DNA from: Bacteroidia bacterium
GTDB lineage: Bacteria; Bacteroidota; Bacteroidia; Bacteroidales; Azobacteroidaceae
Direction of reading: 5' to 3'
Length of the DNA stretch: 33,730 bases
Assembly: GCA_025996865.1 (NCBI GenBank)
Contig: BNTV01000050.1
Coordinates: forward strand, 1 to 33,730
This document shows positions 7,395-30,182 of the stretch, in pieces. Position numbers and translations under genes: made by a program. The notes under the pieces were generated by a model that did no database searches, was not told the DNA's origin, and saw only the letters and a list, made by a program, of their open reading frames with translations. How positions within the stretch are numbered: position 1 is the stretch's first letter; each line of letters starts with the position of its first letter.

Positions 7395-7442
7395 TATAAT
7401 CAGCCATAACTCACTATTTTTACATACTTATGGCTGATTATA
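7395..7442. repeat. 47-bp repeat, left copy, forming a 15-bp hairpin
   Basis: Arms 7395-7409 and 7428-7442 (ATAATCAGCCATAA and its complement) are perfect over 15 bp with an 18-base T-rich loop. Bases 7395-7441 are identical to 8490-8536. It sits directly before the promoter of the truncated ATPase gene. The perfect conservation of arms and loop indicates recent duplication or active copying rather than two independent terminators. Confidence 0.9.
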
Positions 7443-7451
7443 AAATCATAT

Positions 7452-7482
7452 TTTGAAATATCGCAACTTTTTTATACCTTTG
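7452..7482 (+). promoter_or_regulatory. Promoter left in front of the truncated ATPase gene
   Basis: TTTG at 7452-7455, 19-base spacer, TACCTTTG at 7475-7482: an exact match to the Bacteroides consensus. Transcription should start near 7490, already inside sequence homologous to the middle of the ATPase family. The promoter therefore appears to have survived a deletion that removed the original start codon and 5' coding region. Confidence 0.65.
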
Positions 7483-7485
7483 TGG

Positions 7486-8481
7486 CTGATTGTCTGTGGC
7501 TCTGCTACTTCGTGGATTATCAACAACTTAATCAACAATCACGGCGGACTATATAATCGCCTTACGGCAAGCATTTTCCTCCAACCATTTAGTTTATTGG
7601 AATGTGAATTGTATTTCAAAGCAAAAAAAATAGAATTGAGCCGTATGCAAATTGCTGAATATTATATGATTATGGGCGGTATTCCGTTTTATTTGAGTAA
7701 AATTAAAAAAGGTTTGAGTATCGCGCAGAATATTGACAATCTGTTTTTTTCGCAAAAAAGTGAACTCCGAAACGAATTTAACAATCTTTATGCGGCTCTG
7801 TTTCGCAAGTCGGAAGAATATGTTAAAGTGGTGAAAGCATTGAGCAAAAAAGGCAAGGGATTGAGTCGCAGCGAAATAGAAACGACTGCAAAAATCAAGG
7901 GAGGCGGCACGCTGACGAAAATTCTGCAAAATCTTGAATATTGCGATTTTATCAGAAAATACGCCACTTTCGACCGAAAAAAACGTGACAGGCTTTATCA
8001 ACTTATCGACCCTTTCACGCTGTTTTATTTCAAATTTATCGCCCAAAACGAATATAACAACGAACATTTTTGGACAAATTCGTTAGACACGCCGCTGCAC
8101 AACACTTGGGCGGGTTTTGCCTTTGAGATGCTGGTTTTGTTGCACACGGCAGAAATCAAACAAACAATGGGAATTTCGGGAATTCAGTCGTCTGTGTCGG
8201 CGTGGCGCAGCGAAAAATCAAATCCTGCCGCTCAAATCGACTTGGTAATCAATCGAAAAGACGGCATTATCAACCTGGTAGAAATAAAATTTGCGGGAAA
8301 AGAATTTGCCATTACCAAAGAATATGAATCCAATTTGCGCAACAAGATTTTTGCTTTTAAAGAGGAAACAGGCACGCAAAAAGCCGTCCATTTATTGATG
8401 CTTACTACTTTTGGCGTAAAACAAAATAAATATTCGGGAATAATCCAAAATGAATTGAAACTCAATAATTTATTCTGTTAG
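7486..8481 (+). pseudogene. 5'-truncated AAA-ATPase/DUF234 nuclease gene
   Basis: Homology to the intact ATPase at 20290-21702 starts abruptly at LIVCGSATSW, matching CIVCGSSTSW there, and runs to the end of the family. The ~140 N-terminal residues with Walker A and Walker B are missing. The frame is open back to a TTG at 7453, but that codon lies upstream of the expected transcript start, and the residues before LIVCG are promoter DNA read as codons. What remains holds the winged-helix segment and the DUF234 PD-(D/E)XK nuclease core (AAQIDLVIN...LVEIKFAGK), without stops or frameshifts, so the deletion may be recent or the remnant may still be expressed from an internal start. Confidence 0.8.
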
Positions 8482-8489
8482 CATAATTT

Positions 8490-8536
8490 TATAATCAGCC
8501 ATAACTCACTATTTTTACATACTTATGGCTGATTAT
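8490..8536. repeat. 47-bp repeat, right copy
   Basis: Identical over 47 bases to 7395-7441 and in the same orientation; arms of 14 bp close around the same T-rich loop. It begins 8 bases after the stop of the truncated nuclease gene, so the two copies frame that gene as a ~1.1-kb unit. It could also act as a terminator for the gene before it. Confidence 0.9.
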
Positions 8537-8627
8537 GATATTTTTAAATCCTCAATACTTTACCACACATTCCACAAAGCCCCTCTTTTTAGGGATGTTT
8601 CTGTCAGGAAAATACCCTAATTACGGG

Positions 8628-8659
8628 ATTGTGGATAGGTTTCCTTATATATACTTTTG
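8628..8659 (+). promoter_or_regulatory. Putative promoter of the TonB receptor operon
   Basis: ATTG at 8628-8631, 20-base spacer, TACTTTTG at 8652-8659 (full match to TAnnTTTG). Transcription would begin near 8667, 18 bases before the ATG at 8685. This would drive the ten-gene run ending at 20282. No clear iron-repressor box could be recognised by eye. Confidence 0.55.
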
Positions 8660-8684
8660 CACATTATCAAGTACGATACTTAAA

Positions 8685-11621
8685 ATGCGAATAGCTTTTG
8701 TTTTTATTTTCTTATGTGTTTGCCACATAGCCGCTTGTCAGTATTCCTTGTCGGGGAGGATTCTGGAAGATAAAACCAATAATCCGATAGAATATGCTTC
8801 GGTGGAGATTACGGCCAATGAGTTGCGGGCAATCACGAATGAAAAAGGAGAGTTTCTTTTGAAAAATATTTCGAGAGGCGAGATTCGTATAATGGTATCT
8901 TGTTTGGGATATGCCAAAAAAACCTTTGATGTGAAACTTACCGGCAACATGCGGGATTTGGTATTTTATTTGCCGCAAGATAATCTGGCGCTTAAAGAAG
9001 TGGTGATTACCGCCAAAAGCAAATCCGGCGAAACAGCAACTTCATACGTTATCGACCGCGCGGGACTCGACCATTTGCAGATGTCCGGCGTGTCCGATGC
9101 GATGAGCTTGCTTCCCGGCCGGCAAACCAATCGCAACCTGCATCTTGCCTCCGGCGTCCAACGCTTGGCTGTCCGCGGCGCTACCGGCGAACAGGGTAAT
9201 TCTACTTTTGGGACGGCGGTAGAAGTGGACGGCGTCCGCCTGTCCAATAATGCGGCTTTCAATGCCGGGTCAACATCTTCTATCGGAGAAGTTTACGGAA
9301 TAGATACGCGGAATATTGCAACGCATAACGTCGAATCCATCGAAATTATCACCGGAATCCCTTCCGTGGAATATGGCGATTTGTCGAATGGAGTCGTCAG
9401 AATCAATTCCCGGAAAGGAAAATCACCCCTACTTGTTGAATTGGCTACGAAACCGAACACCAAACAAGTGTCCGCAAGCAAGGGTTTTGACCTGAAACAC
9501 AATGCCGGCGTGCTTAACGCTTCCATCGAATATACCAAATCCATATCCGAATTGGCTTCTCCCTATACTTCTTACGACAGGAACAGTTTATCGTTGATTT
9601 ACGAAAATACGTTTAACAAACAAAACCAACCGCTGACGCTTACGGCCGGTATCTCCGGAAATACCGGAGGATACGACAGCCACGCCGACCCGGACAGTTT
9701 CAGGGAAACATACGTTAAAGAAAAAGACAATACGCTGAGAGGAAATCTAAAACTCAATTGGTTGCTCAATAAACCCTGGATTACGCTTGTTGAATTTTCC
9801 GCAGCGCTAAGTTATTCCGATAATTTAAGCACTGAAAAAGTCAATAAATCAAGTTCCACTTCCGTTGCAGCCATTCATGGATTGGAAGAAGGATATTTTG
9901 TTGCACAAAAATACGATGAATTTCCCGATGCACCTGTCGGACTTCTTCCCGGAGGTTATTGGTATGAAACGGCTTATACCGATAGTAAACCGTTGAATTA
10001 CACAGCCAAACTAAAGGCAAAATGGGCAAAGAAATACAATGCCATACAAAGTAATTTAATGTTGGGAGCAGATTTCAACAGTTCCGGAAACAAGGGCAAA
10101 GGCCTCTATTATGACAATTTACGGAATGCGCCGGATTGGAGGGAATATCGTTACGACCAAGTGCCGTTCATGAATACGGTTTCCGCATATCTCGAAGAAA
10201 AATTAGATATCGCACTCGGTAAATCCATGTTAAAACTACTGGCCGGTTTGCGTTCGGATGTCACATTGATTAAAAATTCGGCTTATGGAAATGTCGGCAG
10301 TTTGTCGCCCCGTTTCAATGCCAAATATATCATAGAAAAATTTACCATACATGCCGGCTGGGGGGAAGCGGTTAAACTCCCTTCATTTTCGATTCTTTAT
10401 CCTTCTCCCGCCTATTCGGATAAACTCGCTTTCGCTCCCGGAGCCATGCCCGACGGAACGATTTTTTACGCCTACTATTTACGTCCCTACGTCTCGAAAT
10501 ACAATCCGGACTTGAAATGGCAATACAATCAACAGGCGGAAATCGGATTTGAAGCACGGCTCAAAGGCGTCAATATTTCCGCAACATTTTACAGGAACAA
10601 ACTTAAAAATTCTTATACTACCTCGACGGAATATACGCCGTTTGAATATAAATTTACAGACCAGAAACAGTTGGAATCGTCAAATATTCCCGCCGGAAAC
10701 AGGATTTACTCAATCGACCGGACAACAGGAATTGTTACGGTTTCCGATAAAACCGGCGGACATCCCGCCGAAACGCTTGCATACCGGGAAATGAAAACGT
10801 TTAAATCAAACAACATGTACATAAATGGTTCTCCTTCAACGCAAAACGGTATAGATTGGGTGATCGATTTCAACAAAATAGAGGCGATTATGACTTCCAT
10901 CCGCCTCGACGGAAATTATTACCGCTACAAAGGCGTAGAAGAGAAAATAACCGCCAGTTCTCCGGTATCTCAAATGATGACGGATGGCAATCCCTACAAA
11001 TATATCGGCTATTATGTCGGTACATCAGGTGTTTCCAATGGCAGTGAAAAAAAGAATCTTACGACTAATTTGACCCTGACAACGCATATTCCTGCTATCC
11101 GGATGATTTTTTCATTACGTCTTGAAGGCACTCTCTACAATTATACCCAAAATCTGAGCGAATACAGCGGCGGACAACGCGGTTTTGCATTGGATGACCG
11201 CGCCGGTTATTTTCCGTCAAACGATAATCCTTCCGGAATCTACAATTCCGACCGTTATATTGGTGTTTATCCTTTATATTATACGTCTTATGAGGATATG
11301 AATACAAAAATTCCTTTTGCCGAAAAATTGGCATGGGCAAGGGACAACGACCGGGAGTTGTATAATGAATTGGCTAAATTGGTGGGAAAATCCAATACCG
11401 ATTATTATTTCAATGCCAACACGCTGTCGGCCTATTATTCCGCCAATATCAGCGTTACGAAAGAAATCGGCGACCATGTTTCCATGACATTCAATGCAAT
11501 TAACTTTTTGAACAACACGCAGTTGATTAAATCCGGAAATCGAGATTCGGAAATAACAATATACGGCACATCCTATATTCCCAAGTTTTATTACGGATTG
11601 ACGTTGCGGATAAAAATATAA
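8685..11621 (+). CDS. TonB-dependent outer-membrane receptor
   Basis: 978 residues from the ATG at 8685; the frame runs back to 8535, but the signal peptide (MRIAFVFIFLCVCHIAAC) and the promoter favour this start. After it come a carboxypeptidase-regulatory-like beta domain (SGRILEDKTNNPIEYASVEI...GEFLLKNI, ~residues 20-105), a plug domain (LKEVVITA... SDAMSLLPGRQT...VRGATGEQG...VEIITGIPSVEYGDLSNGVVRI) and a long beta-barrel ending in YYGLTLRIKI. It imports a ligand using TonB-ExbBD energy. It is a single-protein receptor with no SusD partner, which points to metal chelates, heme, vitamins or peptides rather than polysaccharide (inference). The following lipoprotein starts 6 bases later. Confidence 0.93.
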   Translation: MRIAFVFIFLCVCHIAACQYSLSGRILEDKTNNPIEYASVEITANELRAITNEKGEFLLKNISRGEIRIMVSCLGYAKKTFDVKLTGNMRDLVFYLPQDNLALKEVVITAKSKSGETATSYVIDRAGLDHLQMSGVSDAMSLLPGRQTNRNLHLASGVQRLAVRGATGEQGNSTFGTAVEVDGVRLSNNAAFNAGSTSSIGEVYGIDTRNIATHNVESIEIITGIPSVEYGDLSNGVVRINSRKGKSPLLVELATKPNTKQVSASKGFDLKHNAGVLNASIEYTKSISELASPYTSYDRNSLSLIYENTFNKQNQPLTLTAGISGNTGGYDSHADPDSFRETYVKEKDNTLRGNLKLNWLLNKPWITLVEFSAALSYSDNLSTEKVNKSSSTSVAAIHGLEEGYFVAQKYDEFPDAPVGLLPGGYWYETAYTDSKPLNYTAKLKAKWAKKYNAIQSNLMLGADFNSSGNKGKGLYYDNLRNAPDWREYRYDQVPFMNTVSAYLEEKLDIALGKSMLKLLAGLRSDVTLIKNSAYGNVGSLSPRFNAKYIIEKFTIHAGWGEAVKLPSFSILYPSPAYSDKLAFAPGAMPDGTIFYAYYLRPYVSKYNPDLKWQYNQQAEIGFEARLKGVNISATFYRNKLKNSYTTSTEYTPFEYKFTDQKQLESSNIPAGNRIYSIDRTTGIVTVSDKTGGHPAETLAYREMKTFKSNNMYINGSPSTQNGIDWVIDFNKIEAIMTSIRLDGNYYRYKGVEEKITASSPVSQMMTDGNPYKYIGYYVGTSGVSNGSEKKNLTTNLTLTTHIPAIRMIFSLRLEGTLYNYTQNLSEYSGGQRGFALDDRAGYFPSNDNPSGIYNSDRYIGVYPLYYTSYEDMNTKIPFAEKLAWARDNDRELYNELAKLVGKSNTDYYFNANTLSAYYSANISVTKEIGDHVSMTFNAINFLNNTQLIKSGNRDSEITIYGTSYIPKFYYGLTLRIKI

Positions 11622-11627
11622 AATGGT

Positions 11628-12980: not shown

Positions 12981-12996
12981 TTTAATTTTTAACAAT

Positions 12997-13500
12997 ATGA
13001 AAAAGAAAAAAATTGTTTTGGGAATGGTTCTCGTAGCGCTAATATGCACGGGAACGGCAACGAAGGCGGATGATGTTCCGCAACTGACCGTACAGTGGAA
13101 CTTTACGGACGATTCCAACAAAGCGTATTATTTTGCCGATTGGAGTAAAATAACTTTCGACGCCAATGGGAATGCCGTTTTTGCCTTGGTGAACGGAGAT
13201 ACAAAAACCTATGCGCTCGATGATTTGAAAAGCGTTACCTTTCCGGTACAAACGTTGGGAACATCCATTCCGGAAATAAAGGTTCCGAAATTAACGGCGT
13301 ATCCGAATCCGGTTGTGAGCAATTTAACCATCGAAGCGGAAAATCCGTTGGGGATAATTATCTTGGTGGATTTGAGCGGGCGAAAAGTAAAATCATTTGA
13401 GAGTAAAGAGACCAAAGTTTCTTTGGATTTATCCGGTCTTCCCAAAGGCATTTACATTTTGCAAGCCGGCGGGAAAACGAGTAAAATCGTAAAAAATTAA
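12997..13500 (+). CDS. Small T9SS-sorted secreted protein
   Basis: 167 residues: a signal peptide (MKKKKIVLGMVLVALICTGTATKA), a short N-terminal region with the WSKITFDANGN...YALDDLKSVTF pattern common in small Bacteroidota exported proteins, and from ~90 a type A C-terminal sorting domain (LTAYPNPVVSNLTIEAE...VDLSGRKVKSF...LSGLPKGIYILQ...SKIVKN). That domain directs export by the type IX system and usually removal or surface anchoring, so the organism should have PorSS. The mature cargo would be only ~70 residues with no recognisable activity. Lies between the two DUF4876 genes, 16 and 39 bases away, so probably part of the same transport locus. Confidence 0.85.
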   Translation: MKKKKIVLGMVLVALICTGTATKADDVPQLTVQWNFTDDSNKAYYFADWSKITFDANGNAVFALVNGDTKTYALDDLKSVTFPVQTLGTSIPEIKVPKLTAYPNPVVSNLTIEAENPLGIIILVDLSGRKVKSFESKETKVSLDLSGLPKGIYILQAGGKTSKIVKN

Positions 13501-13539
13501 AATCAATGTATTATCTAATCAATTAAAAATGTTATTAGA

Positions 13540-14682: not shown

Positions 14683-14694
14683 TAGTTCGTAATA

Positions 14695-16302: not shown

Positions 16303-16313
16303 TTATTATCTAC

Positions 16314-17030: not shown

Positions 17031-17033
17031 TTA

Positions 17034-17057: not shown

Positions 17058-17082
17058 AAAAATTGTTATACAATTATTGTTT

Positions 17083-17751
17083 ATGTATCAATCAATTATT
17101 TACAAAGAGTGGATTAAAACCCGGAGTATGATTGTCCTTATGGCAATTGTTTTCTTGGGTGCCGGAATTTATTCCTTTATGAAAATTGCAGAGACAGGCC
17201 GGTTGATGGGGATGATTAATTATTGGGAGGGAACGATTGAAAAGGGCGTGTCTTTTTTCGAATATTTCAAATATTTACCGCTGTTGTTGGGCATATTGTT
17301 GGCTGTGACTCAATACGTTCCGGAATTACAATTCAAGCGCTTGAAACTGACTTTGCATTTGCCGCTTCCCGAAAAGAACATCATTGCGGTGATGCTGGCT
17401 TACGGTCTGGCGGTTGAGCTGTTGTTCATTCTCATCACCGTGCCATTGTTATTGCTTGGATTGAGTTTTGGTTTTCCGCGGGAAATAGTTTGGGGCGCTT
17501 TCTGGCTGATATTGCCTTGGTTTTTGGCAGGATTAGCCGCTTATCTGATTGCGTCGTGGATTTGTTTGGAACCGCAATGGAAACAACGGGTTTTGGATTT
17601 CATTCCCGGAGCGGGAGTGATTTCGTTCTTCTTTATGGGTGTAAAAGCAGGGGCTTATCAGCCGTTTGTGATTTATTTGGTCGGGTTTATTTTGTTGGCT
17701 TTTGCTTTTTCGTTTTATTCGGCGATACGGTTCAAGGAAGGGAAAAGTTAA
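17083..17751 (+). CDS. ABC transporter permease, ABC-2-like
   Basis: 222 residues from the ATG at 17083. The N-terminus (YQSIIYKEWIKTRSMIVLMAIVFLGAGIYSF) has the cytoplasmic 'KEW' elbow followed by a first membrane helix typical of ABC-2 permeases. About six hydrophobic segments follow (FKYLPLLLGILLAVTQYV, LAVELLFILITVPLLLLGL, GAFWLILPWFLAGLAAYLIASWI, PGAGVISFFFMGV, FVIYLVGFILLAFAFSFYSAI). Forms the membrane half of the transporter with the ATPase encoded just before. Substrate not evident. Confidence 0.85.
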   Translation: MYQSIIYKEWIKTRSMIVLMAIVFLGAGIYSFMKIAETGRLMGMINYWEGTIEKGVSFFEYFKYLPLLLGILLAVTQYVPELQFKRLKLTLHLPLPEKNIIAVMLAYGLAVELLFILITVPLLLLGLSFGFPREIVWGAFWLILPWFLAGLAAYLIASWICLEPQWKQRVLDFIPGAGVISFFFMGVKAGAYQPFVIYLVGFILLAFAFSFYSAIRFKEGKS

Positions 17752-17839
17752 TACCCCCCTGCCCCCTGAAGGGGAGGGTAGGGCAGTGAGTTTGAACATT
17801 ATGCTGCGGCAAAAGTCCCCTTCAGGGGATTTAGGGGTA
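17752..17839. repeat. Paired CCCCTGAAGGGG repeat, upstream copy
   Basis: A left unit at 17752-17774 (TACCCC..CCCCTGAAGGGG) and a right unit at 17817-17839 (CCCCTTCAGGGG..GGGGTA) face each other, so the block is an inverted repeat whose halves are themselves palindromic. It closely matches the block at 19076-19179. This is a dispersed intergenic repeat of the REP/BIME kind common in Bacteroidota. It could slow or end transcription between the permease and DUF4857 genes. Confidence 0.88.
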
Positions 17840-17854
17840 AAAAATAAAAATAGT

Positions 17855-19102
17855 ATGAACAAAAGAATTATATATATCATTTTGTTGCTTTTCGTAACAA
17901 TTGCGGGCTTATGGGGAATCCCCGAATTAGTAAAAACGGCGACTTCTTCGAAAAGTCACTATCCGTTTGTATATTTCAGTTCGGTCAAAAAGAAACTGAT
18001 GTTTCGCGAATCGGACGGACGGAAGAATCCTTTTCATGACGACGAAGGTACGGTTTACACCGACGACGAATATGACAAGTCGTTGCCGCTGTTCAATTTC
18101 AGACAACTAACGGTCAATGGGGAAATGCCCGACAGTATAGATGGAATTGCCATAGACCCAAGGGAATTAAGAGTTAAAATGGTCAATTTCCGTTATGCGC
18201 CTGCCGAAATACACAGGCCCGAAACAGGTCTGTACATCATGTACGAATCTTTACCGAAGAAAGCCAAACTGGAATCTCCGGGCGATGTTTTCCGCATGAA
18301 AGACAAAATCGAATTTATTGATGATGAAACAAATACGTTAAATCAAAAAAAGAGCGAGCTTTTCCAGTCCGCCCTTTTGAAAGCCGGATATACTTTTCCG
18401 GCGCAATGGACGTATGGGGATTTGAATATCCGGAAACCATACGATGAAGGATATTTTTCTTTGGATGCCAAGGATGAGCTTTACCATATCAAAATGGTGA
18501 ATGGACGTCCGTTTGTGAAGAATACACAATTGGATTCCACGATTAAACCGGCTTATTTTTCGATGTTGGAAGTAGCCGATAAACGGTTTTACGGATTTCT
18601 TTTTGATAAAAAAGGGAATGTTTATATTATCGAAGAAGCCGGTGGAAAATACAATCCGGTACAATTGGGAATTGATCCGGTCAATTTGGATACGGATGAC
18701 TTGATGATTTTAGGAAATATGCTGTACTGGACAGTTTCCGTTCAAAATGAATCGGGTAAGCGTGTTTATGCTTTGGGTGCGCAAACGCTTGAACGGGTGC
18801 GGGATACATTCATTGCCGCGTCTCCTGATAAATGGGATGTCGTTGCCGGCAAGATTTTCCCGTTTTACTTGACATTTCAGAAAAAAACAAACGATTACGT
18901 TGTGCCTCAAATTAATTTTACGGCTTATTTAGCTTTATTTTGTAATTTTGCATTGGCATTGCTGATTGCATTTTTGATTTCCGGTAAATCGAAAAAACAA
19001 AAGATTTTTTCAGGGATTTATACGTTGGTTTTTGGCATCGCTGGTGCAGTTGCATTGCTGATTGTTCCAGCTCCAACCCCCAACCCCCTGAAGGGGGCTT
19101 AG
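17855..19102 (+). CDS. DUF4857 membrane-anchored protein
   Basis: 415 residues from the ATG at 17855; the frame is open upstream to 17702, but that part only translates the repeat. One N-terminal membrane helix (RIIYIILLLFVTIAGLWGI), a large periplasmic domain (~30-350) with beta-propeller-like lysine/aspartate-rich turns (FYGFLFDKKGNVYIIEEAGG), then two C-terminal helices (LALFCNFALALLIAFLI, IYTLVFGIAGAVALLIV). DUF4857 proteins regularly follow an ABC-2 ATPase and permease in Bacteroidota, so it is probably the third subunit of that complex (family context plus inference). The last ~10 residues (APTPNPLKGA) and the stop codon are supplied by the downstream repeat, so the original C-terminus has been replaced. 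Confidence 0.85.
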   Translation: MNKRIIYIILLLFVTIAGLWGIPELVKTATSSKSHYPFVYFSSVKKKLMFRESDGRKNPFHDDEGTVYTDDEYDKSLPLFNFRQLTVNGEMPDSIDGIAIDPRELRVKMVNFRYAPAEIHRPETGLYIMYESLPKKAKLESPGDVFRMKDKIEFIDDETNTLNQKKSELFQSALLKAGYTFPAQWTYGDLNIRKPYDEGYFSLDAKDELYHIKMVNGRPFVKNTQLDSTIKPAYFSMLEVADKRFYGFLFDKKGNVYIIEEAGGKYNPVQLGIDPVNLDTDDLMILGNMLYWTVSVQNESGKRVYALGAQTLERVRDTFIAASPDKWDVVAGKIFPFYLTFQKKTNDYVVPQINFTAYLALFCNFALALLIAFLISGKSKKQKIFSGIYTLVFGIAGAVALLIVPAPTPNPLKGA

Positions 19103-19179
19103 CGCCATGATATTGAAAGAGAGTAGATAAACAAATAATAAACTTGCTTTCCGTCTCCCCCTTCAGGGGGCTGGGGGTA
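19076..19179. repeat. Paired CCCCTGAAGGGG repeat, downstream copy
   Basis: ACCCCCAACCCCCTGAAGGGGG at 19076-19097 faces CCCCCTTCAGGGGGCTGGGGGTA at 19157-19179. Same architecture as 17752-17839 with slightly longer G/C runs. The left unit overlaps the end of the DUF4857 frame and gives it its stop. The two blocks thus frame one gene of the operon and could recombine to delete it. Confidence 0.88.
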
Positions 19180-19193
19180 AAAACAACAACAAA

Positions 19194-19730: not shown

Positions 19731-19739
19731 AAAATTCAA

Positions 19740-20282: not shown

Positions 20283-20289
20283 CCTCAGT

Positions 20290-21702
20290 TTAATGCAAGA
20301 AAAGGTCGTCCATAACAATTTCCGATTGCGCGATGCTTCTGTATCCTTTTTCGGACAAACCGTAAGTGGTTACCATAGTGATGTGAAGCGCGCTTCTTGT
20401 TTTCGTTTCCGATGCAAACAGTCTTTTTTTATGCTCCAATGTTTCGGCACAGGTCTTGTCGATAAGGTACGGATGCTTGGTGTATTTCATCTCGCACAAA
20501 TTGATTACGCCATCGCGACGGTTTATCAATAAATCAATTTGTGCGGCAGGCATAGACTCCTTACTTCGCCATGACGAAACGCTTGTCGAAATGCCGGCAA
20601 TACCCAATTTTGCTTTCATTTGCCGTAAATGGCTTCTGCATACAAGCTCAAAAGCGAAACCGCTCCATGCCCTGTGGCCTCCGTCCTCGGAATAGTTTGT
20701 CCAAAAATATTCATCTTTGGTATTGTTGTTTTTTATATATCGCAGGAAGAACAGTGAAAAAGGGTCTTTGAGATAATAATAGGCGCCGTTTTTAGGGCGC
20801 GTAAAATCGGTATATTTTTCAATGAAATCACATTGTTCAAGTTCGGTCAGTGTATTGGTCAGATGACCGTTTGCCGGAATACCGCTCTTTTCGCTGATTT
20901 CGTTTCTTGTCATACCTGACGCTTTGGCAGACAGCGTTTCGACTACTGCCAGATGACGTTCCGGGTTATTGAACAGTGAATAATACAAAGACTTGTATTC
21001 ATTTCTCAATGCCGCTCCATCGGCAAAGCACAATCGGTCAACATTCTGCGAAAATGAGGCGCTTTTGTCGAAAAAATGGAGATAATACGGGATGCCTCCG
21101 AATATCATATAGCTCTCAAGAATTTGATAGCGCGTGATAACAATGCCGCGACTTTTGAAAAAATCCTCACATTCGCCGAGTGAAAAAGGAGCGAGATGTA
21201 TTCTTCCCGTTACGCGATTGTGGAGTCCGCCCCGATTGAGAAACAATTTTTTCGTTATCCATGATGTGGACGAGCCGCAAACGATACAGAGGATTTCAGG
21301 GTTTGACGAAGCCCAACTGTTCCAGAAATAATCGAAAGCGGTCAGGAAATCCGAACCGGGCACATCAAGCCAGGGCATTTCGTCAAGGAAAACCACTTTC
21401 CGTCCTTTATCATGAGCGGACAGCAACATTTTCAATTTGCCGAAAGCCTCACGCCAATTCGCAGACTTTTTGCCTTTAACGCCGCCATATTCCGCGATAG
21501 CTTCGTCGAAATTGCTCAGATGGACGGCATTTGTTTCACCCATCGTGCCGGTAAAATAAAAAACGAAACGGTTAAAATACTCCTTAATAAGGAATGTTTT
21601 TCCAACACGTCGTCGTCCGAAAACAACTACAAGTTCGGGTCTGCCTGAATCGTAATAGCGTTTCAGTTCCCGTTTTTCATTATTTCTGCCAATCAGTTCC
21701 AT
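20290..21702 (-). CDS. AAA ATPase with DUF234 PD-(D/E)XK nuclease domain, intact
   Basis: 470 residues. The ATPase part (ATPase_2 family) has Walker A GRRRVGKT (29-36), Walker B VVFLDE (103-108) and the CGSSTSW sensor region (142-148). A winged-helix segment lies around 262-295 (MTRNEISEKSGIP...LEQCDFIEKY). The C-terminal DUF234 domain has a PD-(D/E)XK core: Glu352, Asp390 in QIDLLIN, and Glu404-x-Lys406 in CEMKY. Length is standard and all key residues are present. These genes are numerous in Bacteroidota and archaea, often strain-specific, with no settled function; defence or selfish behaviour are proposals, not facts. Homologue of the truncated gene at 7486-8481. Its 5' flank carries two GGGCTAAAA hairpins. 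Confidence 0.92.
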   Translation of the reverse strand: MELIGRNNEKRELKRYYDSGRPELVVVFGRRRVGKTFLIKEYFNRFVFYFTGTMGETNAVHLSNFDEAIAEYGGVKGKKSANWREAFGKLKMLLSAHDKGRKVVFLDEMPWLDVPGSDFLTAFDYFWNSWASSNPEILCIVCGSSTSWITKKLFLNRGGLHNRVTGRIHLAPFSLGECEDFFKSRGIVITRYQILESYMIFGGIPYYLHFFDKSASFSQNVDRLCFADGAALRNEYKSLYYSLFNNPERHLAVVETLSAKASGMTRNEISEKSGIPANGHLTNTLTELEQCDFIEKYTDFTRPKNGAYYYLKDPFSLFFLRYIKNNNTKDEYFWTNYSEDGGHRAWSGFAFELVCRSHLRQMKAKLGIAGISTSVSSWRSKESMPAAQIDLLINRRDGVINLCEMKYTKHPYLIDKTCAETLEHKKRLFASETKTRSALHITMVTTYGLSEKGYRSIAQSEIVMDDLFLH

Positions 21703-21724
21703 ATTTTTGCTCTGTTTGAAATAC

Positions 21725-21760
21725 GGGCTAAAAGTAATAAAAAAAATTGTATTTTAGCCC
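21725..21760. repeat. GGGCTAAAA hairpin, gene-proximal
   Basis: GGGCTAAAA at 21725-21733 pairs with TTTTAGCCC at 21752-21760 (9 bp, 18-base loop that is T-rich on the gene's strand). It begins 22 bases upstream of the ATPase start codon, so it lies in the 5' untranslated region or over the promoter. On the minus strand TACTTTTA at the loop-arm border is one mismatch from a -7 box. Confidence 0.85.
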
Positions 21761-21797
21761 TATAATTGTATCTTTTTTGCCTTAATTCTTTTTCACA

Positions 21798-21833
21798 GGG
21801 CTAAAACATATAAAAATATCCTGGTTTTAGCCC
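21798..21833. repeat. GGGCTAAAAC hairpin, gene-distal
   Basis: GGGCTAAAAC at 21798-21807 pairs perfectly with GTTTTAGCCC at 21824-21833 (10 bp, 16-base loop containing ATATTTTTATAT on the gene's strand). Starts 73 bases from the proximal hairpin and uses the same arm word, giving four copies of GGGCTAAAA in alternating orientation. No T run follows on either strand, so a simple terminator is not the obvious reading. Confidence 0.85.
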
Positions 21834-21981: not shown

Positions 21982-21989
21982 TATCTTTG
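21982..21989 (+). promoter_or_regulatory. -7 box of the metal efflux operon
   Basis: TATCTTTG is an exact match to TAnnTTTG, 14 bases before the ATG at 22004. No good TTTG lies at the proper distance upstream, so the promoter may need an activator or use a weak -33 element. Confidence 0.45.
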
Positions 21990-22003
21990 CAAAAATTTTC
22001 GGA

Positions 22004-22345: not shown

Positions 22346-22396
22346 TATTCTGTTTTTTTAACACGAGTATTTACAATTATTCACACTAAATTATAA

Positions 22397-23506: not shown

Positions 23507-23509
23507 GCC

Positions 23510-26500
23510 ATGTTGAAAAAGATTATTCATATTGCAGTGCATCGGCGGGGACTGATGCTCGTGCTGTTTATTTTTCTGGCGTTGGTAGGGTATTATTCGT
23601 GGTCAAGACTGTCGATTGACGCTTATCCCGATATTGCGGACACCTCTGTACAGGTAGTTACGCAAGTACCGGGTTTGGCTGCCGAAGAAATTGAGCAGCA
23701 GATAAGTATTCCTATTGAACGCGCGTTGAATGGAATTCCGGGATTGAACGTGATGCGAAGCAAAAACACCTTCGGTTTATCAACGGTGATTCTGGTTTTC
23801 GACGACGGTGTGGAAGATTACTGGGCGCGCCAACGGATACAGGAACGGCTGACGGAAGTCGAACTTCCCTACAATGCTGTTCCGGGATTGAATCCGCTGA
23901 CTTCGCCCACGGGTGAAATTTTCCGTTACATCATCGAAAGCGACCGGCTGAGTCTGCGCGAAATAACCGATTTGCACAAATGGGTGATTATCCCTCGCCT
24001 GAGGCAAATAACCGGTATCGCTGATGTGAGCAATTACGGAGGAATCACTACACAATACCAGATAGAGGTGGATCCTCATAAAATGGAAGAATACGGCATT
24101 ACGCTGGACGATATTACCGAAAAAGTAAACAAAAACAACGTCAATGCCGGCGGGAGTATGCTCAACAAAGGCGATTTGAGTTATGTGATACGGGGAATCG
24201 GTCTGGTGAAAGACTTGGATGATTTGGGGCGCATCGTTATCAAAACGGTGAACGGCATTCCCATTTACCTGAACGACATCGGCGGATTAAAATACGGCAA
24301 CCTTGAACGGAAAGGTGTTTTGGGATTTATCGACGATACCCGCAACTATTCCGATGGCGTGGAAGGCATTGTGCAAATGCTGCGTGGTTCCAACCCGTCG
24401 CAAGTATTGGGAGAAGTTCATAAAGCGGTGGACGAACTCAACAGCGAAATTCTGCCGGAAGGCACGCGGATTCATCCGTTCATGGACAGGACGATATTGG
24501 TAAACCAGACTTTAAATACGGTTTCCCATACATTGCTTGCCGGAATGGCGTTGGTTGTTCTGGTGCTGATTCTTTTCCTGCGAAGCTGGCGGGGCGCTTT
24601 GCTCGTAGCGCTGACGATTCCGTTTTCGCTGCTCATCGCCTTTATCCTGATGCACCTTACCGATATTCCGGCGAATCTGCTTTCGTTGGGCGCTATCGAC
24701 TTCGGGATTTTGGTGGATGGCGCTATCGTCATGATGGAAACAATTTTGAAAAAACGGGAAAGTCATCCGGACGAAATCCTGAAAAAAAAGTCGATTCTCG
24801 ACAGGGCTGTAGAAGTCGCCAAACCTATTTTCTTTTCCACACTGATTATCATCACGGCGTATTTGCCGTTGTTCGCGTTTGAACACATCGAGAAAAAACT
24901 GTTTACCCCAATGGCTTATACCGTTGGATACGCTTTGCTCGGCGCATTGGCGGTCGCTCTGTTTCTCATTCCGGGACTGGCTTTCATCGCCTATAAAAAG
25001 CCCCGGAAAATTTCCCGCAACCGCTGGTTGGAACGTTTGACCGAAAGTTATCACCACCAGATGACACACTTGTTGAAAAAACCGAAGCAAGTGCTGGCTT
25101 TTCTGCTGATTGTCCTTGCCGCAGCCGGCGTTTTGAGTTATACGGCGGGAAAGGATTTTCTGCCGCCCTTGGATGAAGGGGCGATATGGATACAGGTACA
25201 ACTTCCTTCGGGCATCTCCATTGAGAAATCGAAAGCGATGGGCGAAGAATTACGGAAAACATTGAAATCGTTCGACGAAGTTTCATACGTGATGACGCAG
25301 GTGGGGCGCGACGATGAAGGTGCGGAAGCCTTTTCTCTTTCCCACGTGGAATGTGGCGTCGGCCTGAAACCTTACCATACATGGAAACGCGGCATGACGA
25401 AAGCGAAGCTGATTGAACAGATGAACGAAAAATTGTCTGCCCTGCCCGGTTACACCGTAGGATTTTCCCAGCCGATTATCGACATGGTAATGGATATGGT
25501 TGCGGGGGCGCATAGCGATTTGGCATTGAAAGTGTATGGCGAAGACATTATCGAAACGCGGCATATTGCCGACCGGATTGTCAATGTCCTGCGTAAAATT
25601 CCCGGTGCGGCGGATGTCGCCGTCGAACAAGATCCGCCCTTTCCCCAGATGCAGATTATTGCCGACCGCGAACGCATCGCCCGATACGGACTGAATGTTT
25701 CCGACGTTACCGATATGATTGAATTGGCTATCGGCGGCGCATCCATCTCTCAGGTTTATGTGGGCAGCAAAAATTACGATGTTATTTGCCGTTTCGGCGA
25801 TGAAACCCGCAATTCACCGGAAAAAATCGGCGACCTGCTATTGACAACGGCTTCCGGTGCGAAAATTCCTCTTTCGCAAGTTGCGGAAATCAAAATGACT
25901 ACCGGTCCCAGTATGATTACCCACGAAATGAACAAACGCCACCTGACAATTCGCATCAATCTCCGCGGAATTGACTTGACGGGTTTCTTGAATAAGGCGA
26001 ACGACGTCATCAAAAAAGACGTGAATTTCGACCGCAATGCCTATACCCTGAAATGGGCGGGACAGTTTGAAAATCAAAATCGCGCTTACAGTCGTTTGGC
26101 AGCGGTGATTCCGCTGGCGCTCGGCGTGATGCTGTTGTTGTTGTTCGGCGCGACGGGGAAATTCCGTCAGGCTGCCTTGATGATGTCCATTGTTCCGTTG
26201 GCGGTTTTCGGTGGAATGTTAGCGCTTAACGTGCGGGGCATGACGCTCAATGTATCCTCTGCGGTAGGCTTTATCGCCTTGATTGGCGTCGCTATACAGA
26301 ACGGTGTGATTATGCTTTCGCACATCAATCACCTGCGCGAAAGCGGGTACGGTTTGGAAGAAGCTGTCATTGACGGTGCGCGGCACCGGTTTCGTCCGGT
26401 GTTGATGACTGCCTCGGTGGCGGTGCTTGGATTGTTGCCGGCATCGGTCAGTACCGGCATTGGTTCGGATGTGCAGCGGCCGCTGGCTACGGTGATTGTG

Positions 26501-26590
26501 TATGGATTGCTTTTCGCTACGGTGATTACTTTGTATATTTTGCCGGCGATTTATTATTGGGTAGAAAGACGTGCAGAGAAAAAATTGTAA
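23510..26590 (+). CDS. czcA: CzcA/CusA-family heavy-metal efflux RND pump
   Basis: 1026 residues, the normal size: twelve membrane helices and two large periplasmic loops. The N-terminus (RGLMLVLFIFLALVGYYSW...IDAYPDIADTSVQVVTQVPGLAAEEIEQQI) is diagnostic of the heavy-metal efflux branch. Transmembrane helix 4 carries IDFGILVDGAIVMME, that is Asp397, Asp403 and Glu410, with the same spacing as the Asp402/Asp408/Glu415 proton-relay triad known for CzcA. This favours divalent ions (Co, Zn, Cd, Ni) over Cu(I)/Ag(I). It extrudes metal from periplasm or cytoplasm using the proton gradient. The channel gene follows 3 bases on. Confidence 0.95.
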   Translation: MLKKIIHIAVHRRGLMLVLFIFLALVGYYSWSRLSIDAYPDIADTSVQVVTQVPGLAAEEIEQQISIPIERALNGIPGLNVMRSKNTFGLSTVILVFDDGVEDYWARQRIQERLTEVELPYNAVPGLNPLTSPTGEIFRYIIESDRLSLREITDLHKWVIIPRLRQITGIADVSNYGGITTQYQIEVDPHKMEEYGITLDDITEKVNKNNVNAGGSMLNKGDLSYVIRGIGLVKDLDDLGRIVIKTVNGIPIYLNDIGGLKYGNLERKGVLGFIDDTRNYSDGVEGIVQMLRGSNPSQVLGEVHKAVDELNSEILPEGTRIHPFMDRTILVNQTLNTVSHTLLAGMALVVLVLILFLRSWRGALLVALTIPFSLLIAFILMHLTDIPANLLSLGAIDFGILVDGAIVMMETILKKRESHPDEILKKKSILDRAVEVAKPIFFSTLIIITAYLPLFAFEHIEKKLFTPMAYTVGYALLGALAVALFLIPGLAFIAYKKPRKISRNRWLERLTESYHHQMTHLLKKPKQVLAFLLIVLAAAGVLSYTAGKDFLPPLDEGAIWIQVQLPSGISIEKSKAMGEELRKTLKSFDEVSYVMTQVGRDDEGAEAFSLSHVECGVGLKPYHTWKRGMTKAKLIEQMNEKLSALPGYTVGFSQPIIDMVMDMVAGAHSDLALKVYGEDIIETRHIADRIVNVLRKIPGAADVAVEQDPPFPQMQIIADRERIARYGLNVSDVTDMIELAIGGASISQVYVGSKNYDVICRFGDETRNSPEKIGDLLLTTASGAKIPLSQVAEIKMTTGPSMITHEMNKRHLTIRINLRGIDLTGFLNKANDVIKKDVNFDRNAYTLKWAGQFENQNRAYSRLAAVIPLALGVMLLLLFGATGKFRQAALMMSIVPLAVFGGMLALNVRGMTLNVSSAVGFIALIGVAIQNGVIMLSHINHLRESGYGLEEAVIDGARHRFRPVLMTASVAVLGLLPASVSTGIGSDVQRPLATVIVYGLLFATVITLYILPAIYYWVERRAEKKL

Positions 26591-26593
26591 ATT

Positions 26594-27868
26594 ATGAGAA
26601 AAGAAACAGTATTGATGATTTTTTTATTCGCTTGCCTTGTTTCTCATTCACAGGAAATAGAAACAAAGCGACAAGTGATTGATTATAAGACCTATATTGA
26701 TTTGGTTCGGAAACAAAACTTGGAATACGCTGCCGAAAAGCTCAACGTCAGCGTCGCCGAAGCGGAAATAAAAGCCGCCAAAGTATTCAACGACCCGAAT
26801 TTAAGTGTAGAATACGCCGATAATGATGACCGCCGTATGCAAATGGGACGTTCGGTATCGGTAGAATTAAGCAAAACGTTCTCCATCGGTAAACGTGGCG
26901 CCAATATTGACTTGGCAAAAAGCGGAAAGGAGTTGAACGAAGCCTTATTGACGGATTATTTTCACCGCTTGCGGGCGGAAGCAACATTGGCTTATCTTGA
27001 AGCGCTGAAACAGTCGGAATTGTATGCCGTGAAAAAAGATTCTTACGACAATATTCGCCGGCTGGCTGAGGGAGACAGCATCCGTTTCAAATTGGGTAAA
27101 ATCACGGATGTGGATGCCGTGCAAAGCAAACTCGAAGCGGATATTGCCGGCAATGATCTTTTGCAGGCGCATGTTGAGTTGCTTAATTCGTTTTCTTCTT
27201 TAGGATTGTGGGCGGGTGTCTTTCAACAAGATAAGATTTACAATCCTGCCGGAAAATTGCAAAAACAAGAGCGTTTATTCGATACCGGACAATTGTTGGA
27301 AACGGCGCTTGCCAACCGCGCCGACCTTGCTGCCGCTCTGAAAAATGTTGATGTAGCCCAAAAGGAATTGAAAGTAGTCCGGCGTGAACGCAACCCGGAT
27401 TTTGACCTCGCACTCGGTTACAATTACAACACCGAAGTCCGGAACGAAATCGCCCCTGCGCCGAAATTCAACGGCGTGACGGTGGGTGTCGCCGTTCCTT
27501 TGAAATTTTCCAATACCAATAAGGGAGCGGTACTGGCAGCAGAATTCCGGAAACAGCAAGCCGAGTTGAATTACCGTCAAGCCGAACTGGAAGTACAGAC
27601 ATCCGTCATGCAAAGTTTACGGCAATATCAAGCGTCGCTCAAGCAGGTCCGGCAGTACGAAACCGGTATGTTGGACAATGCCCGTACGGTGCTTAACGGG
27701 AAAATTTACAGTTACGAGCGCGGCGAAACCTCGCGTCTGGAAGTGCTGGTCGCCCAACAAACATTCGACGAACTCCGGTCGGCTTATATCGAAACGGTTT
27801 TCGGCAGTCTTTCGGCGTTGATAGCGTTGGAACGGAATGCCGGAATTTGGGATATTGAAATTGACTGA
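26594..27868 (+). CDS. Outer-membrane efflux channel (TolC/CzcC type)
   Basis: 424 residues with a signal sequence (MRKETVLMIFLFACLVSHS). Cleavage could be by signal peptidase I before QEIE, or LFAC (Cys14) could serve as a lipobox, so lipidation is undecided. Two outer-membrane-efflux repeats follow, ~30-215 and ~230-420, each of two long coiled helices plus barrel strands (YIDLVRKQNLEYAAEKLNVSVAEAEIKAAKVFNDPNLSVEYAD; LETALANRADLAAALKNVDVAQKELKVVRRERNPDFDLALGYNYN). Supplies the exit duct for the pump encoded just before. The operon ends here, facing the convergent ferredoxin-domain gene. Confidence 0.92.
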   Translation: MRKETVLMIFLFACLVSHSQEIETKRQVIDYKTYIDLVRKQNLEYAAEKLNVSVAEAEIKAAKVFNDPNLSVEYADNDDRRMQMGRSVSVELSKTFSIGKRGANIDLAKSGKELNEALLTDYFHRLRAEATLAYLEALKQSELYAVKKDSYDNIRRLAEGDSIRFKLGKITDVDAVQSKLEADIAGNDLLQAHVELLNSFSSLGLWAGVFQQDKIYNPAGKLQKQERLFDTGQLLETALANRADLAAALKNVDVAQKELKVVRRERNPDFDLALGYNYNTEVRNEIAPAPKFNGVTVGVAVPLKFSNTNKGAVLAAEFRKQQAELNYRQAELEVQTSVMQSLRQYQASLKQVRQYETGMLDNARTVLNGKIYSYERGETSRLEVLVAQQTFDELRSAYIETVFGSLSALIALERNAGIWDIEID

Positions 27869-27921
27869 CCTACGGCGTCAAACGGAAGTGGGAATGGAGG
27901 ATTTGTCTGGGAAATAATTTA

Positions 27922-28446
27922 TCAAATCTTCCTGTCAAAAAACGGATTCTTGGACGAAGCCGAAACCGGAATGGCGAAAACCGTCCGGCAACCTTCCGGC
28001 CAATTCAAAGCTTGTGCGGAATAACCAACCGAAAACATAACCCGCGTATCCAACCGGAAATCGGCAGCGATGGAGCAAGCCGATCCGATAGCGATTCCTA
28101 CATCGACGGAATTGATGGCGCAAGGCACTGCTTGGGGTTTGTCCGCACAAGTCGGATAACCGCAATAAGCGCAGTTCAAATTTTGTACCGATTGACGGGT
28201 TCCTATCAATACGACGGCTTCTGCGGAGAGGATGTTTTCGGCATCTCGGAGAAAAAAATTCATACCGTTTTTTTCGCCTAATTCCTTGGTTTTAGCCGAT
28301 AACGTTTCAATCTCTTTTCCTTCGACGGCGATGATTTCAAGAATATCAACCCCTTTTCCTTTGGGAGCCGTCCGGGCAGCCGTCATCATTTGTTTGACGG
28401 CTGTCATTACTTGCGCGTGGCGCGTTTCTCTTTCGTTTAAAATCAT
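27922..28446 (-). CDS. DUF2148 ferredoxin-domain protein
   Basis: 174 residues from the ATG at 28446; a longer frame to 28503 overlaps the upstream nuclease gene and adds only a lysine/arginine-rich leader. The protein has an alpha/beta start (MTAARTAPKGKGVDILEIIAVEGKEIETL) and a cysteine cluster at 92, 95, 100, 109 and 124 (NCAYCGYPTC, PCAINSVDVGIAIGSAC). This is the pattern of the DUF2148 'ferredoxin domain-containing' family, thought to hold an iron-sulfur cluster. Cytoplasmic, no export signal. It starts 46 bases after the DUF1703 nuclease gene on the same strand; a functional link is not implied by what is known of either family. Confidence 0.88.
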   Translation of the reverse strand: MILNERETRHAQVMTAVKQMMTAARTAPKGKGVDILEIIAVEGKEIETLSAKTKELGEKNGMNFFLRDAENILSAEAVVLIGTRQSVQNLNCAYCGYPTCADKPQAVPCAINSVDVGIAIGSACSIAADFRLDTRVMFSVGYSAQALNWPEGCRTVFAIPVSASSKNPFFDRKI

Positions 28447-28492
28447 AATATGAAAAATATTTGGAATTTTCCTTTTACGCTTTCGTGCAATT

Positions 28493-30076
28493 TTAATTTT
28501 CAACGGTCAATTGTTCTATCCTGCAAGCGACCTCTTTTCCACTGAATGCGATGCCCAGCAGAATGACTTTCCGGTCAAGAAACGGCTCATAATAGCGTTT
28601 TTCCCGGATTTGCGCGATAGCCTGGTCGAGTAGGGTATCCGGTTTTGTGGCGGCGTGGTATTTCAACTCTGCCACTACCGCCAGTCCGGGTTGCTGCAAC
28701 ACCGCGTCTATACGCCCTCGATTGGTCGGCTTTTCGCTTTGAATATTGAAACCGAGCATGGTCATCCATACCTGAAACATGATGTGATAACGGGCTTCAT
28801 TGGCATCTTCGCTTATATTGTCTTCCGGCTGCAAAGGGTAGGGAACGTCGGCAAGCATTCTACGCATATTATTTGTAAAACCCTCTGCATCGAAATCAAG
28901 TATCTGCTGCAACATTTCCCGCCCAAGTTCCGACATTTTCGAAAGGGGATAATTGGTATATGCGTTTAACAAATGCTCCATCAACGACTCTTTTACCTCC
29001 ATGTTAGGTACCTCAAGGGTGTAAAGAGGGTCACCGTTAGTCACCGTTTCATCTGTAATGGTCAAATATCCCGTTTGAAACAGCAGGGGAATATCCTCAA
29101 GCGCATCGGGATCGTAACTGTTGAACGCCGTCGGACCTACAACAACCGGTTCCAGTACGGTTTTGGCAAGGCTGCGTTTTTTCAGCCGGTCTATCAAAAA
29201 AGTAGGCGTACCCGTTTCAAACCAGTAATTGGAAAATTTTTGATTACGGAAAAACATCAGTGTAGAATACGGATTATAAACAGACGTTTTGCCGTCCCAT
29301 GTATAGCCATCATACATTTCACGAATCTTTGCCAACAAATCGTCTCTCGTCATCTTTAAAGATGCTGCCGTTTCGTTGATGTATTCCGAAAAATTACTTT
29401 CCAACTCTTTCTGAGTATAACCACAAATGGAGGCAAACTTATTGTTCATTGTAATGTCGTCGGGACTGTTCAGTACTGAAAAAATCGACACTTTGGCGAC
29501 CTTCGTTACGCCTGTCAGAAAGATAAATTTCAGGTGGTCGTCGTCGGCTTTCAATACCATGTAAAATTTCTGAAGAAATTCACGTACCCCTTCGGCTTCC
29601 GGTTTACCCGTTGAGTTTAATATCGGACGGTCGTATTCGTCAATTAGCACAACCACTTTTTGTCCTGTTTTGCGGTGCAATGATTCTATCAATTCCGAAA
29701 AACGGCTGGAAGCAAACCGGCGGATAAGGGTTATGTCGTTGGCAGTTGCGATTGACTGCAAAAAATCGGACATATCCATTTCCATATTTTCCCTGCTGCC
29801 ATGCTCAATATTCGTCCAGTCTATCCGGATAACAGGATATTGTCGTGTCCAGTCCCATTTGTCGTAGATGTAAAGCCCCTCAAAAAGCGATTGATTGCCT
29901 TTGTAAAGTTCACCCAGCGTACTGACAAGCAGCGACTTTCCAAAACGGCGAGGACGCGAAAGAAAAACAATGTGCGAATTTGTAAGTTGATGTATTTCTT
30001 TTGTTTTGTCAACATACAAAAAATTTCCACTGCGCAATTCTTCAAACGATTGGATGCCAATTGGTAATTCTTTCAT
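28493..30076 (-). CDS. AAA-ATPase-like/DUF1703 PD-(D/E)XK nuclease
   Basis: 527 residues from the ATG at 30076 (MKELPIGIQSFEELRSGNFLYVDKT is the standard start of the family; the frame open to 30178 translates the hairpin region). N-terminal AAA-ATPase-like domain: the P-loop is RPRRFGKS (41-48) and Walker B is LIDEYD (144-149). The C-terminal DUF1703 nuclease domain has Asp457 (RGRIDAVL) and Glu470-x-Lys472 (AVVAELKYHA), the PD-(D/E)XK core. All key residues are kept and the length is typical. The family is hugely multiplied in Bacteroidota and a few fungi and eludes functional assignment. Unrelated in detail to the DUF234 ATPase at 20290 but with the same ATPase-plus-nuclease plan, and likewise preceded by a strong hairpin. 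Confidence 0.92.
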   Translation of the reverse strand: MKELPIGIQSFEELRSGNFLYVDKTKEIHQLTNSHIVFLSRPRRFGKSLLVSTLGELYKGNQSLFEGLYIYDKWDWTRQYPVIRIDWTNIEHGSRENMEMDMSDFLQSIATANDITLIRRFASSRFSELIESLHRKTGQKVVVLIDEYDRPILNSTGKPEAEGVREFLQKFYMVLKADDDHLKFIFLTGVTKVAKVSIFSVLNSPDDITMNNKFASICGYTQKELESNFSEYINETAASLKMTRDDLLAKIREMYDGYTWDGKTSVYNPYSTLMFFRNQKFSNYWFETGTPTFLIDRLKKRSLAKTVLEPVVVGPTAFNSYDPDALEDIPLLFQTGYLTITDETVTNGDPLYTLEVPNMEVKESLMEHLLNAYTNYPLSKMSELGREMLQQILDFDAEGFTNNMRRMLADVPYPLQPEDNISEDANEARYHIMFQVWMTMLGFNIQSEKPTNRGRIDAVLQQPGLAVVAELKYHAATKPDTLLDQAIAQIREKRYYEPFLDRKVILLGIAFSGKEVACRIEQLTVEN

Positions 30077-30137
30077 GACTTTTTGTTTTAAAATATCTAC
30101 GAAGATAAACAAAATAATTGAAAGCAAAAAAAATAAA

Positions 30138-30182
30138 ATAAGTGGCGGAATGTCTGTATAAAATAAACATTCCGCCACTTAT
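30138..30182. repeat. Perfect 16-bp inverted repeat between secG and the nuclease gene
   Basis: ATAAGTGGCGGAATGT (30138-30153) and its exact complement (30167-30182) flank a 13-base loop reading TTATTTTATACAG on the minus strand. Its edge is 61 bases from the nuclease start codon and 55 bases past the secG stop. On the minus strand it is followed by ATTTTATTTTTTTTG, so it fits an intrinsic terminator for the secG operon well. The length and perfection of the arms exceed what a terminator needs, and its position matches that of the hairpins before the other two nuclease genes. Confidence 0.9.

Follow-up and report, generated by a model that had tools for sequence, protein, structure and literature searches.

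Small mobile units made of a single gene and subterminal palindromes are known from the IS200/IS605 group and from tnpB-only elements, and in Tn7-like elements a PD-(D/E)XK nuclease, TnsA, works with an ATPase. The REP-RAYT systems comprise REP arrays and RAYTs, which are HUH tyrosine transposases acting on GTAG-tagged repeats (PMC3733652). PDC-S27, listed in PADLOC as a single-gene phage-defence candidate, is an abundant family found by 'guilt-by-embedding' and counted 3503 times in archaea and 4562 times in bacteria in one survey, most PDCs awaiting validation (PMC12988326). Two genes previously called "DUF234" in the window studied here belong to this family. The window is a stretch of 33,730 nucleotides (nt), contig C50 (BNTV01000050.1) within the 5.4-Mb genome, in 421 contigs, of a member of the Azobacteroidaceae, and the subject of this study is the unit formed by a PDC-S27 gene and the palindromes beside it.

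As in REPtrons and REP-RAYT systems, the PDC-S27 gene lies beside or between palindromes which also occur elsewhere, and in this layout the analogy drawn by an earlier note on this DNA stands; it does not extend to the protein, without a HUH transposase domain, nor to the arms of the window, which are not scattered through the genome. Unlike a RAYT, PDC-S27 combines a STAND-like ATPase with a PD-(D/E)XK nuclease, its palindrome arms are copy-specific, and in the two genomes tested most thoroughly the palindromes are few and locally clustered. Moreover, the shared blocks that hold nothing but the unit measure 1.50-1.68 kb, so that no room is left for a HUH transposase beside a gene of ~1.4 kb. 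With the IS200/IS605 group and tnpB-only elements the cassette has in common its small size, its single gene and its palindromes, but the 20 Pfam families matched by 42 aligned proteins of the PDC-S27 clade (E 0.01) include no known recombinase, and neither a HUH transposase, HUH Y1 or TnpB domain nor a DDE transposase. The likeness to Tn7-like TnsC/TnsA, an ATPase working with a PD-(D/E)XK nuclease, is limited by this lack of a DDE match, by the fusion of both parts in one protein and by a size of ~1.5 kb; in a search of the PDB with a cut-off of E 0.01, the sole molecule matched was VchTnsC, whose alignment covers the ATPase and has a best E of 0.001. As regards the archaeal ATPases PABY2304 (2qen) and SSO1545 (2fna), the alignments stop before the C-terminal nuclease domain, and their titles name no mobile unit.

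Flanking palindromes or a mobile unit are not mentioned for PDC-S27 in the available parts of PMC12988326 and PMC13356809, nor was a paper describing these palindromes found in the literature searched, outside which most subscription papers and preprints lay. There are hints that the palindrome-ended PDC-S27 cassette is a kind of mobile element not described before.

Boundaries, arms and sites of PDC-S27 cassettes

The relatives of the intact gene of the window were taken from a search of GTDB contigs, as the best 80 loci of at least 580 confirmed relatives, and the flanks of pairs were compared within 2.5 kb, or less where a contig ended. After de-duplication, seven of the eight pairs with at least 90% identity share ~1.5 kb and no flank homology (identities of 96.0, 95.6, 94.1, 92.1, 91.1, 90.1 and 90.1%, the last two with one common member); the eighth, L109/L112 (98.4%), has no more than 24 nt upstream, and its downstream flank is shared. 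On the left, the shared blocks end within ~10 nt of an outer palindrome end in the copy with fewer units; on the right, they finish with the stop codon or extend as far as the downstream palindromes or past them. The block common to G000:C2 and G010:C2, 91.1% identical over 1520 nt, takes in the palindromes on both sides, its limits coinciding to within 2 nt with the outer end of the upstream one and the end of the downstream one, and the fetched flanks fail to align. Among pairs of at least 76% identity, 28 of 39 are unit-only and the block extends at least 61 nt upstream of the start in all 28; in control pairs of nrdJ, 50 nt or more upstream were reached in 13 of 93. The same unit is therefore found with defined ends at different places (7/8 pairs) and, as described below, is present or absent at one orthologous site, as is generally expected of mobile elements. 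Judging from these alignments, the block of palindromes plus gene is very probably a discrete single-gene mobile unit of ~1.5 kb.

The palindromes are a frequent companion of the gene. A strong hairpin was defined by arms of at least 12 nt with at most one mismatch, a loop of 3-26 nt and at least three G/C, lying inside the 200 nt upstream, and 76 of the 80 loci could be used (three had no clean frame and one too little flank). Such a palindrome precedes 54 of the 76 genes; the corresponding counts are 5 among 380 dinucleotide shuffles, 25 among 382 further genes from the same loci and 14 among the 171 of these with at least 120 nt of intergenic space. The excess over shuffled and control-gene levels expected in the earlier note is thus borne out for this clade. 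Downstream the excess is smaller (23/76 against 57/422 control genes). The T-rich loops described by the same note are a tendency only, since 48 of 87 loops are T-rich and 24 are A-rich; the median loop is 15 nt.

The usual layout consists of one or more private palindromes upstream and, in ~30% of copies, of the same arms again just after the gene, sometimes overlapping the stop codon, which in several copies falls inside the downstream arm. In 22 of 75 loci, the two flanks of the gene have a word of at least 11 nt in common, against 14 of 600 mismatched flank pairs; for words of at least 13 nt the counts are 16 of 75 against 2 of 600. Half-sites form regular arrays: in G001, for example, the period is 52 bases, with, by our count, four units upstream plus one overlapping the promoter, and three downstream. 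That the hairpins are due to chance or are ordinary terminators is hardly credible, even if downstream hairpins do occur in the 57 control genes mentioned; it is contradicted by the upstream enrichment and by the sharing of the same arms between both ends of one gene, and the loops are longer than the 3-8 nt of terminator-like sites.

Furthermore, the arms follow the protein. An arm word of at least 8 nt is common to 22 of 26 pairs with at least 72% protein identity, against 94 of 600 pairs below 55%, and the Mantel correlation between arms and proteins (0.158) exceeds all 500 permutations. The covariation of arm sequence with protein clade foreseen earlier consequently holds for PDC-S27, and part of it is owed to common descent of the upstream DNA.

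The presence or absence of the unit at one site was observed by way of G029, in which nrdJ and a convergent epimerase gene are separated by a cassette (L303 4506-6112). The NrdJ proteins of G016 and G034 are 94% identical to that of G029; in these two genomes the right-flank DNA, 91% identical, sets in again 76 and 59 nt, respectively, past the NrdJ match, as against ~1.7 kb in G029, and the G029 cassette and its arms are absent at both orthologous sites. A second case is Wolbachia phage WO (MN180249), in which two tandem palindromic units precede the gene, itself placed between gpC and the head decoration gene. It is missing at the gpC/head-protein junction in all 10 records fetched, out of 15 other matching records. 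The junction was read in nine of these gene-less records, L405 being compared by alignment only: six hold one palindromic unit, L401 two (one degraded), L399 two to three before an insertion sequence (IS) and L406 none. Palindromes can accordingly persist without the gene. Other candidates for a clean empty site were discarded: G007:C154 (95% identical to window 4225-7221) and G010:C11 (97% identical to one flank of L219) have diverging flanks, and searches with the flanks of L293 and L292 found no empty site.

The cassettes and palindromes of the window

The features of the window which belong to this system are as follows.

7262..7309, no strand: apparent orphan palindrome of another cassette type, arms TTCGCTTAAAC (16-nt arms, 94%, loop 16)
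7395..8541, + strand: PDC-S27 palindrome cassette with an internally deleted gene, recognised by similarity to the intact cassette G001:C327
7395..7442, no strand: left-end palindrome, arms TATAATCAGCCATAA (15-nt perfect arms, loop 18)
7453..8481, + strand: truncated ATPase-nuclease open reading frame (ORF) (PADLOC PDC-S27, E 1.7e-138, profile 140-473)
7470..7491, + strand: -7 promoter box TACCTTTG, then directly the right half-site GTGGCTGATT (read from the sequence)
8490..8537, no strand: right-end palindrome, arms and loop as at the left end, part of a 52-nt direct repeat
20290..21702, - strand: intact 470-residue PDC-S27 gene, with STAND-like ATPase, winged helix and PD-(D/E)XK nuclease (PADLOC profile, Pfam and predicted model)
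21725..21760, no strand: proximal palindrome of the intact gene, arms GGGCTAAAA (9-nt perfect arms, loop 18)
21798..21833, no strand: distal palindrome of the intact gene, same arms as the proximal one (10-nt perfect arms, loop 16)
30138..30182, no strand: apparent orphan palindrome between secG and a DUF1703 gene, arms ATAAGTGGCGGAATGT (16-nt perfect arms, loop 13)

All five hairpins noted earlier are present in the window; the hairpin downstream of the truncated gene was absent from that list. Taken together, the window appears to contain a decayed cassette at 7395-8541, an intact gene whose palindromes all lie on the same side of it (20290-21833) and two orphans. The decayed cassette is bounded by a direct repeat of 52 nt (7395-7446 and 8490-8541, 96% identical, loop included). 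Positions 7395-7491 and 7480-8547 are 91.8% and 86.7% identical, respectively, to the intact cassette of G001, and the flanks did not align. The ORF has lost ~139 N-terminal residues, including Walker A and Walker B, and has retained the winged helix-turn-helix and nuclease parts. At 7480-7499 the deletion fuses the promoter-side half-site GTGGCTGATT to the gene sequence CTGATTGTCTGTGG, and since the two alignments with G001 overlap by 12 nt at this joint, a short-homology event at a half-site is suggested. In the intact gene, one arm sequence is common to both hairpins; its nuclease-coding part also contains a perfect 14-nt inverted repeat (20493-20545).

The intact protein matches the PADLOC PDC-S27 profile over its full length (E 2e-190, profile 3-473 of 474) and Pfam ATPase_2, and its predicted model has a pLDDT (predicted local distance difference test) of 93. 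The curated cut-off of Pfam DUF234 (PF03008) is not reached (18.5 against 22.5 bits), and PF03008 matches at E 0.01 in 12 of 42 relatives. E352, D390, E404 and K406 are invariant across the 42 aligned proteins and probably constitute a PD-(D/E)XK motif (upstream E, D, E-x-K), the assignment of this motif being our own. The ATPase fold is related to STAND/NLR proteins, the structural alignments (VIA-align) spanning residues 1-359 and not the C-terminal domain. In NCBIfam, three proteins had no match, and in PHROGs the window protein gave one weak clamp-loader match and the phage WO protein none.

This clade, that of the 470-residue 'GRRRVGKT' ATPase, has eight copies in the genome of the window and occurs in 18 of 38 genomes of the genus (E 1e-60). 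The strict hairpin measure is passed by three of the seven copies checked in the window genome (L030, L036, L039); in the remaining ones, as in the intact gene of the window, with its perfect arms of 9 and 10 nt, the arms are shorter or less perfect. The same genome has 11 ATPase_2 matches above cut-off and 27 matches to PF09820, the DUF1703 type. Only 3 of the 21 PF09820 genes with a usable start, one of them that of the window, have a strong hairpin, a figure compared with the 25 of 382 control genes in other loci. DUF1703 is therefore rejected as a hairpin-linked family, and the statement that every ATPase-nuclease gene has hairpins fails; the idea that each nuclease is paired with its own palindrome survives for the PDC-S27 clade and not for DUF1703, whose hairpin in the window matches PDC-S27 arms. 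Copy-specific palindromes also lie close to the start codons in a second ATPase_2 clade of the window genome (L029, L031, L032, L035; 436-455 residues), where a spacer of 3-4 nt stands instead of a long loop.

The arms at 30138-30182 match those of the PDC-S27 cassettes L309 and L311 in 13 of 14 positions (score 11.5, where the top 5% of shuffled arms give 6.0), and those at 7262-7309 match L048 in 14 of 15 and L292 and L207 in 14 of 16, well above shuffled arms. Because of these matches to copies elsewhere, both look like orphans of other cassette types, rather than partners of the DUF1703 gene or of the truncated gene. On the viral contigs L461, L462 and L465, orphan palindromes of one cassette type likewise adjoin a cassette of another, as at 7262-7309; cassettes may cluster at, or target, places with palindromes of other cassettes.

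The window arms themselves occur in the genomes of relatives without a gene within the fetched stretch. In G007, a break in the pst operon separates pstA from pstB, and a near-identical palindrome of the window type stands at either end of the break (L210 7664-7711 and L209 894-941), which points to an insertion or rearrangement at palindromes; the region is rearranged, and the split was not accepted as an empty site in spite of these palindromes. In G008, an orphan palindrome of the window type lies upstream of a DUF349 gene. No 15-mer match to it (at most one mismatch) was found on the 12 other contigs with printed upstream regions, of 30 genomes with the gene, and the locus was set aside as an empty/filled site because its boundary is not resolvable.

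REP-like dispersal of the window arms is rejected in the window genome, where the four half-sites found (at most one mismatch) are all at the truncated cassette. It was not observed for the arms of L113 either, whose 14 half-sites in their own genome all lie inside 5.6 kb. In that locus (G038:C12 12546-18164) one arm type forms four arrays, two flanking the ATPase gene and two enclosing a 527-residue ORF which, in our reading of its start, resembles a DNA methylase.

Possible role of the encoded protein and alternative explanations

With moderate confidence, the system is best regarded as a set of single-gene mobile cassettes whose palindromes would serve as ends and as promoter-operators, the encoded ATPase-nuclease being the putative mover. 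The protein would bind its own palindromes through the winged helix, as a dimer or an array, which would explain both the symmetry and the regular spacing of the palindromes. Binding at the upstream palindromes would repress its own promoter; for mobility, the palindromes would be the place at which the ATPase assembles and the nuclease cuts, mobilising or re-inserting the cassette. Orphans would be scars of recombination between two direct palindromes, in the manner of solo-LTRs (long terminal repeats), or units moved in trans, and they call for no further assumptions, since the host could delete the gene between direct palindromes and leave one of them. Comparison of copies shows the block boundaries, the copy-specific and clade-following arms, the sharing between two ends, the filled and empty site and the gene-less orphans; self-mobilisation by the encoded protein goes further and is a doubtful, though serious, possibility. 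The boldest form of the proposal, in which PDC-S27 would act as the transposition enzyme for autonomous transposable elements of a new class, cutting copy-specific hairpin ends and moving the gene that encodes it without the help of any DDE, HUH, serine or tyrosine recombinase, is tentative and on the whole unlikely.

Of the functions proposed in the earlier note (operator, transposition end, self-marker), an end like that of a transposon is most supported, because of the block boundaries, the two-end sharing and the presence or absence at one site. An operator role is likely as well, since a promoter-like box lies inside the best palindrome in 17 of the 70 elements with such a box; in the other 53, the element's own arm word follows the box in 9, where 2.5 would be expected and none of 200 permutations gave more than 7. 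These figures also serve a narrower explanation, that the palindromes are autoregulatory sites of an anti-phage ATPase-nuclease and nothing else, the gene spreading by ordinary transfer and host recombination. The regular spacing of half-sites, the place of the family among defence candidates, its fold kinship with STAND/NLR proteins and the palindromes near the starts of the other ATPase_2 clade agree with it, but it leaves unexplained the same private arms after the stop codon, the blocks that end at a palindrome or stop at 90-96% identity, and the orphans without a nearby gene; it is possible, if rather unlikely. A transposase encoded elsewhere (an HUH TnpA, for example) might instead recognise the ends, the nuclease being an accessory gene comparable to TnpB in tnpB-only IS elements. 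Palindromic ends without a known recombinase domain, and orphan palindromes, would suit such a passenger, whereas the arms differ among copies of one genome and follow the clade of the carried protein, so that a trans-acting enzyme would need many specificities, and the explanation is improbable. More improbable still is the remaining function, a self-marker or trigger by which the nuclease would sense or cut palindromes of its own type when these occur in invading or rearranged DNA, in defence or addiction. The private arms and the defence-candidate family are in keeping with it, and within-genome pairs of at least 70% identity number 0 against 2.9 expected (P 0.039; P 0.127 at 80%); this evidence for copy exclusion is borderline and was not retained, and the signal may be an artefact, as short-read assemblies collapse identical copies.

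Against mobile cassettes moved by their own protein weigh several observations. No known recombinase was found in the unit, its movement by the protein is an inference, and the upstream palindromes taken alone fit an operator. A strong upstream palindrome is lacking in 22 of the 76 copies, and 53 of 75 share no long word with their own downstream flank. Flanks are shared in 11 of the 39 pairs at 76% or more; among the controls, flank homology is absent from 73 of 93 nrdJ pairs, and of the 21 pstB pairs 10 extend at least 50 nt upstream and 13 show flank homology, the upstream neighbour of pstB being pstA in most genomes printed. As nrdJ is often without flank homology and pstB often reaches upstream, the strong evidence is limited to the pairs of at least 90%. 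No target-site duplication or base-exact insertion junction was found, including by eye at the pairs of at least 90%. Within genomes, the top identity is 68% among 79 pairs, unlike that of multiplying insertion sequences, and the genomes of the genus consist of numerous contigs, in which repeats may be collapsed by assembly. The tracking of arms peaks at residues 251-310, the winged helix, and at 0.091 stays below the 95% permutation limit of 0.104; once the maximum over windows is allowed for, the assignment of arm specificity to one domain fails. Finally, the breakpoints of the G029 cassette are blurred by ~50 nt of unalignable DNA per side, and the empty sites are not bare DNA, since both hold another inverted repeat: in G016 one with 13-nt arms, 2 mismatches and a loop of 6, and in G034 (L412, just after nrdJ) an unrelated 53-nt palindrome with 18-nt arms, 2 mismatches and a loop of 17. 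Both may be terminators between convergent genes, and that of G034 is as large as a cassette palindrome and might be an orphan from a different type of cassette.

If the new-transposase reading is true, thousands of listed phage-defence candidates would be selfish cassettes, or defence genes carrying their own mobility, and a new transposition enzyme would follow from the protein being the mover. If its own ends drive the spread of PDC-S27, counting it as immunity becomes uncertain. The palindromes provide a handle on what the nuclease recognises: most of the copies studied have a readable candidate site next to them, and natural specificity variants are at hand.

Other repeats

An inverted repeat at 33140-33220 is made of AATTGAGA units, and a similar motif forms a hairpin with 23-nt arms upstream of another PF09820 gene in the same genome (L003). 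Beside the efflux operon, a short repeat of type CCCCTGAAGGGG is found at 17741-17858 and 19077-19183; that at 17741-17858 recurs on many contigs across several genomes of the genus and, unlike the cassette palindromes, looks truly dispersed and REP-like.

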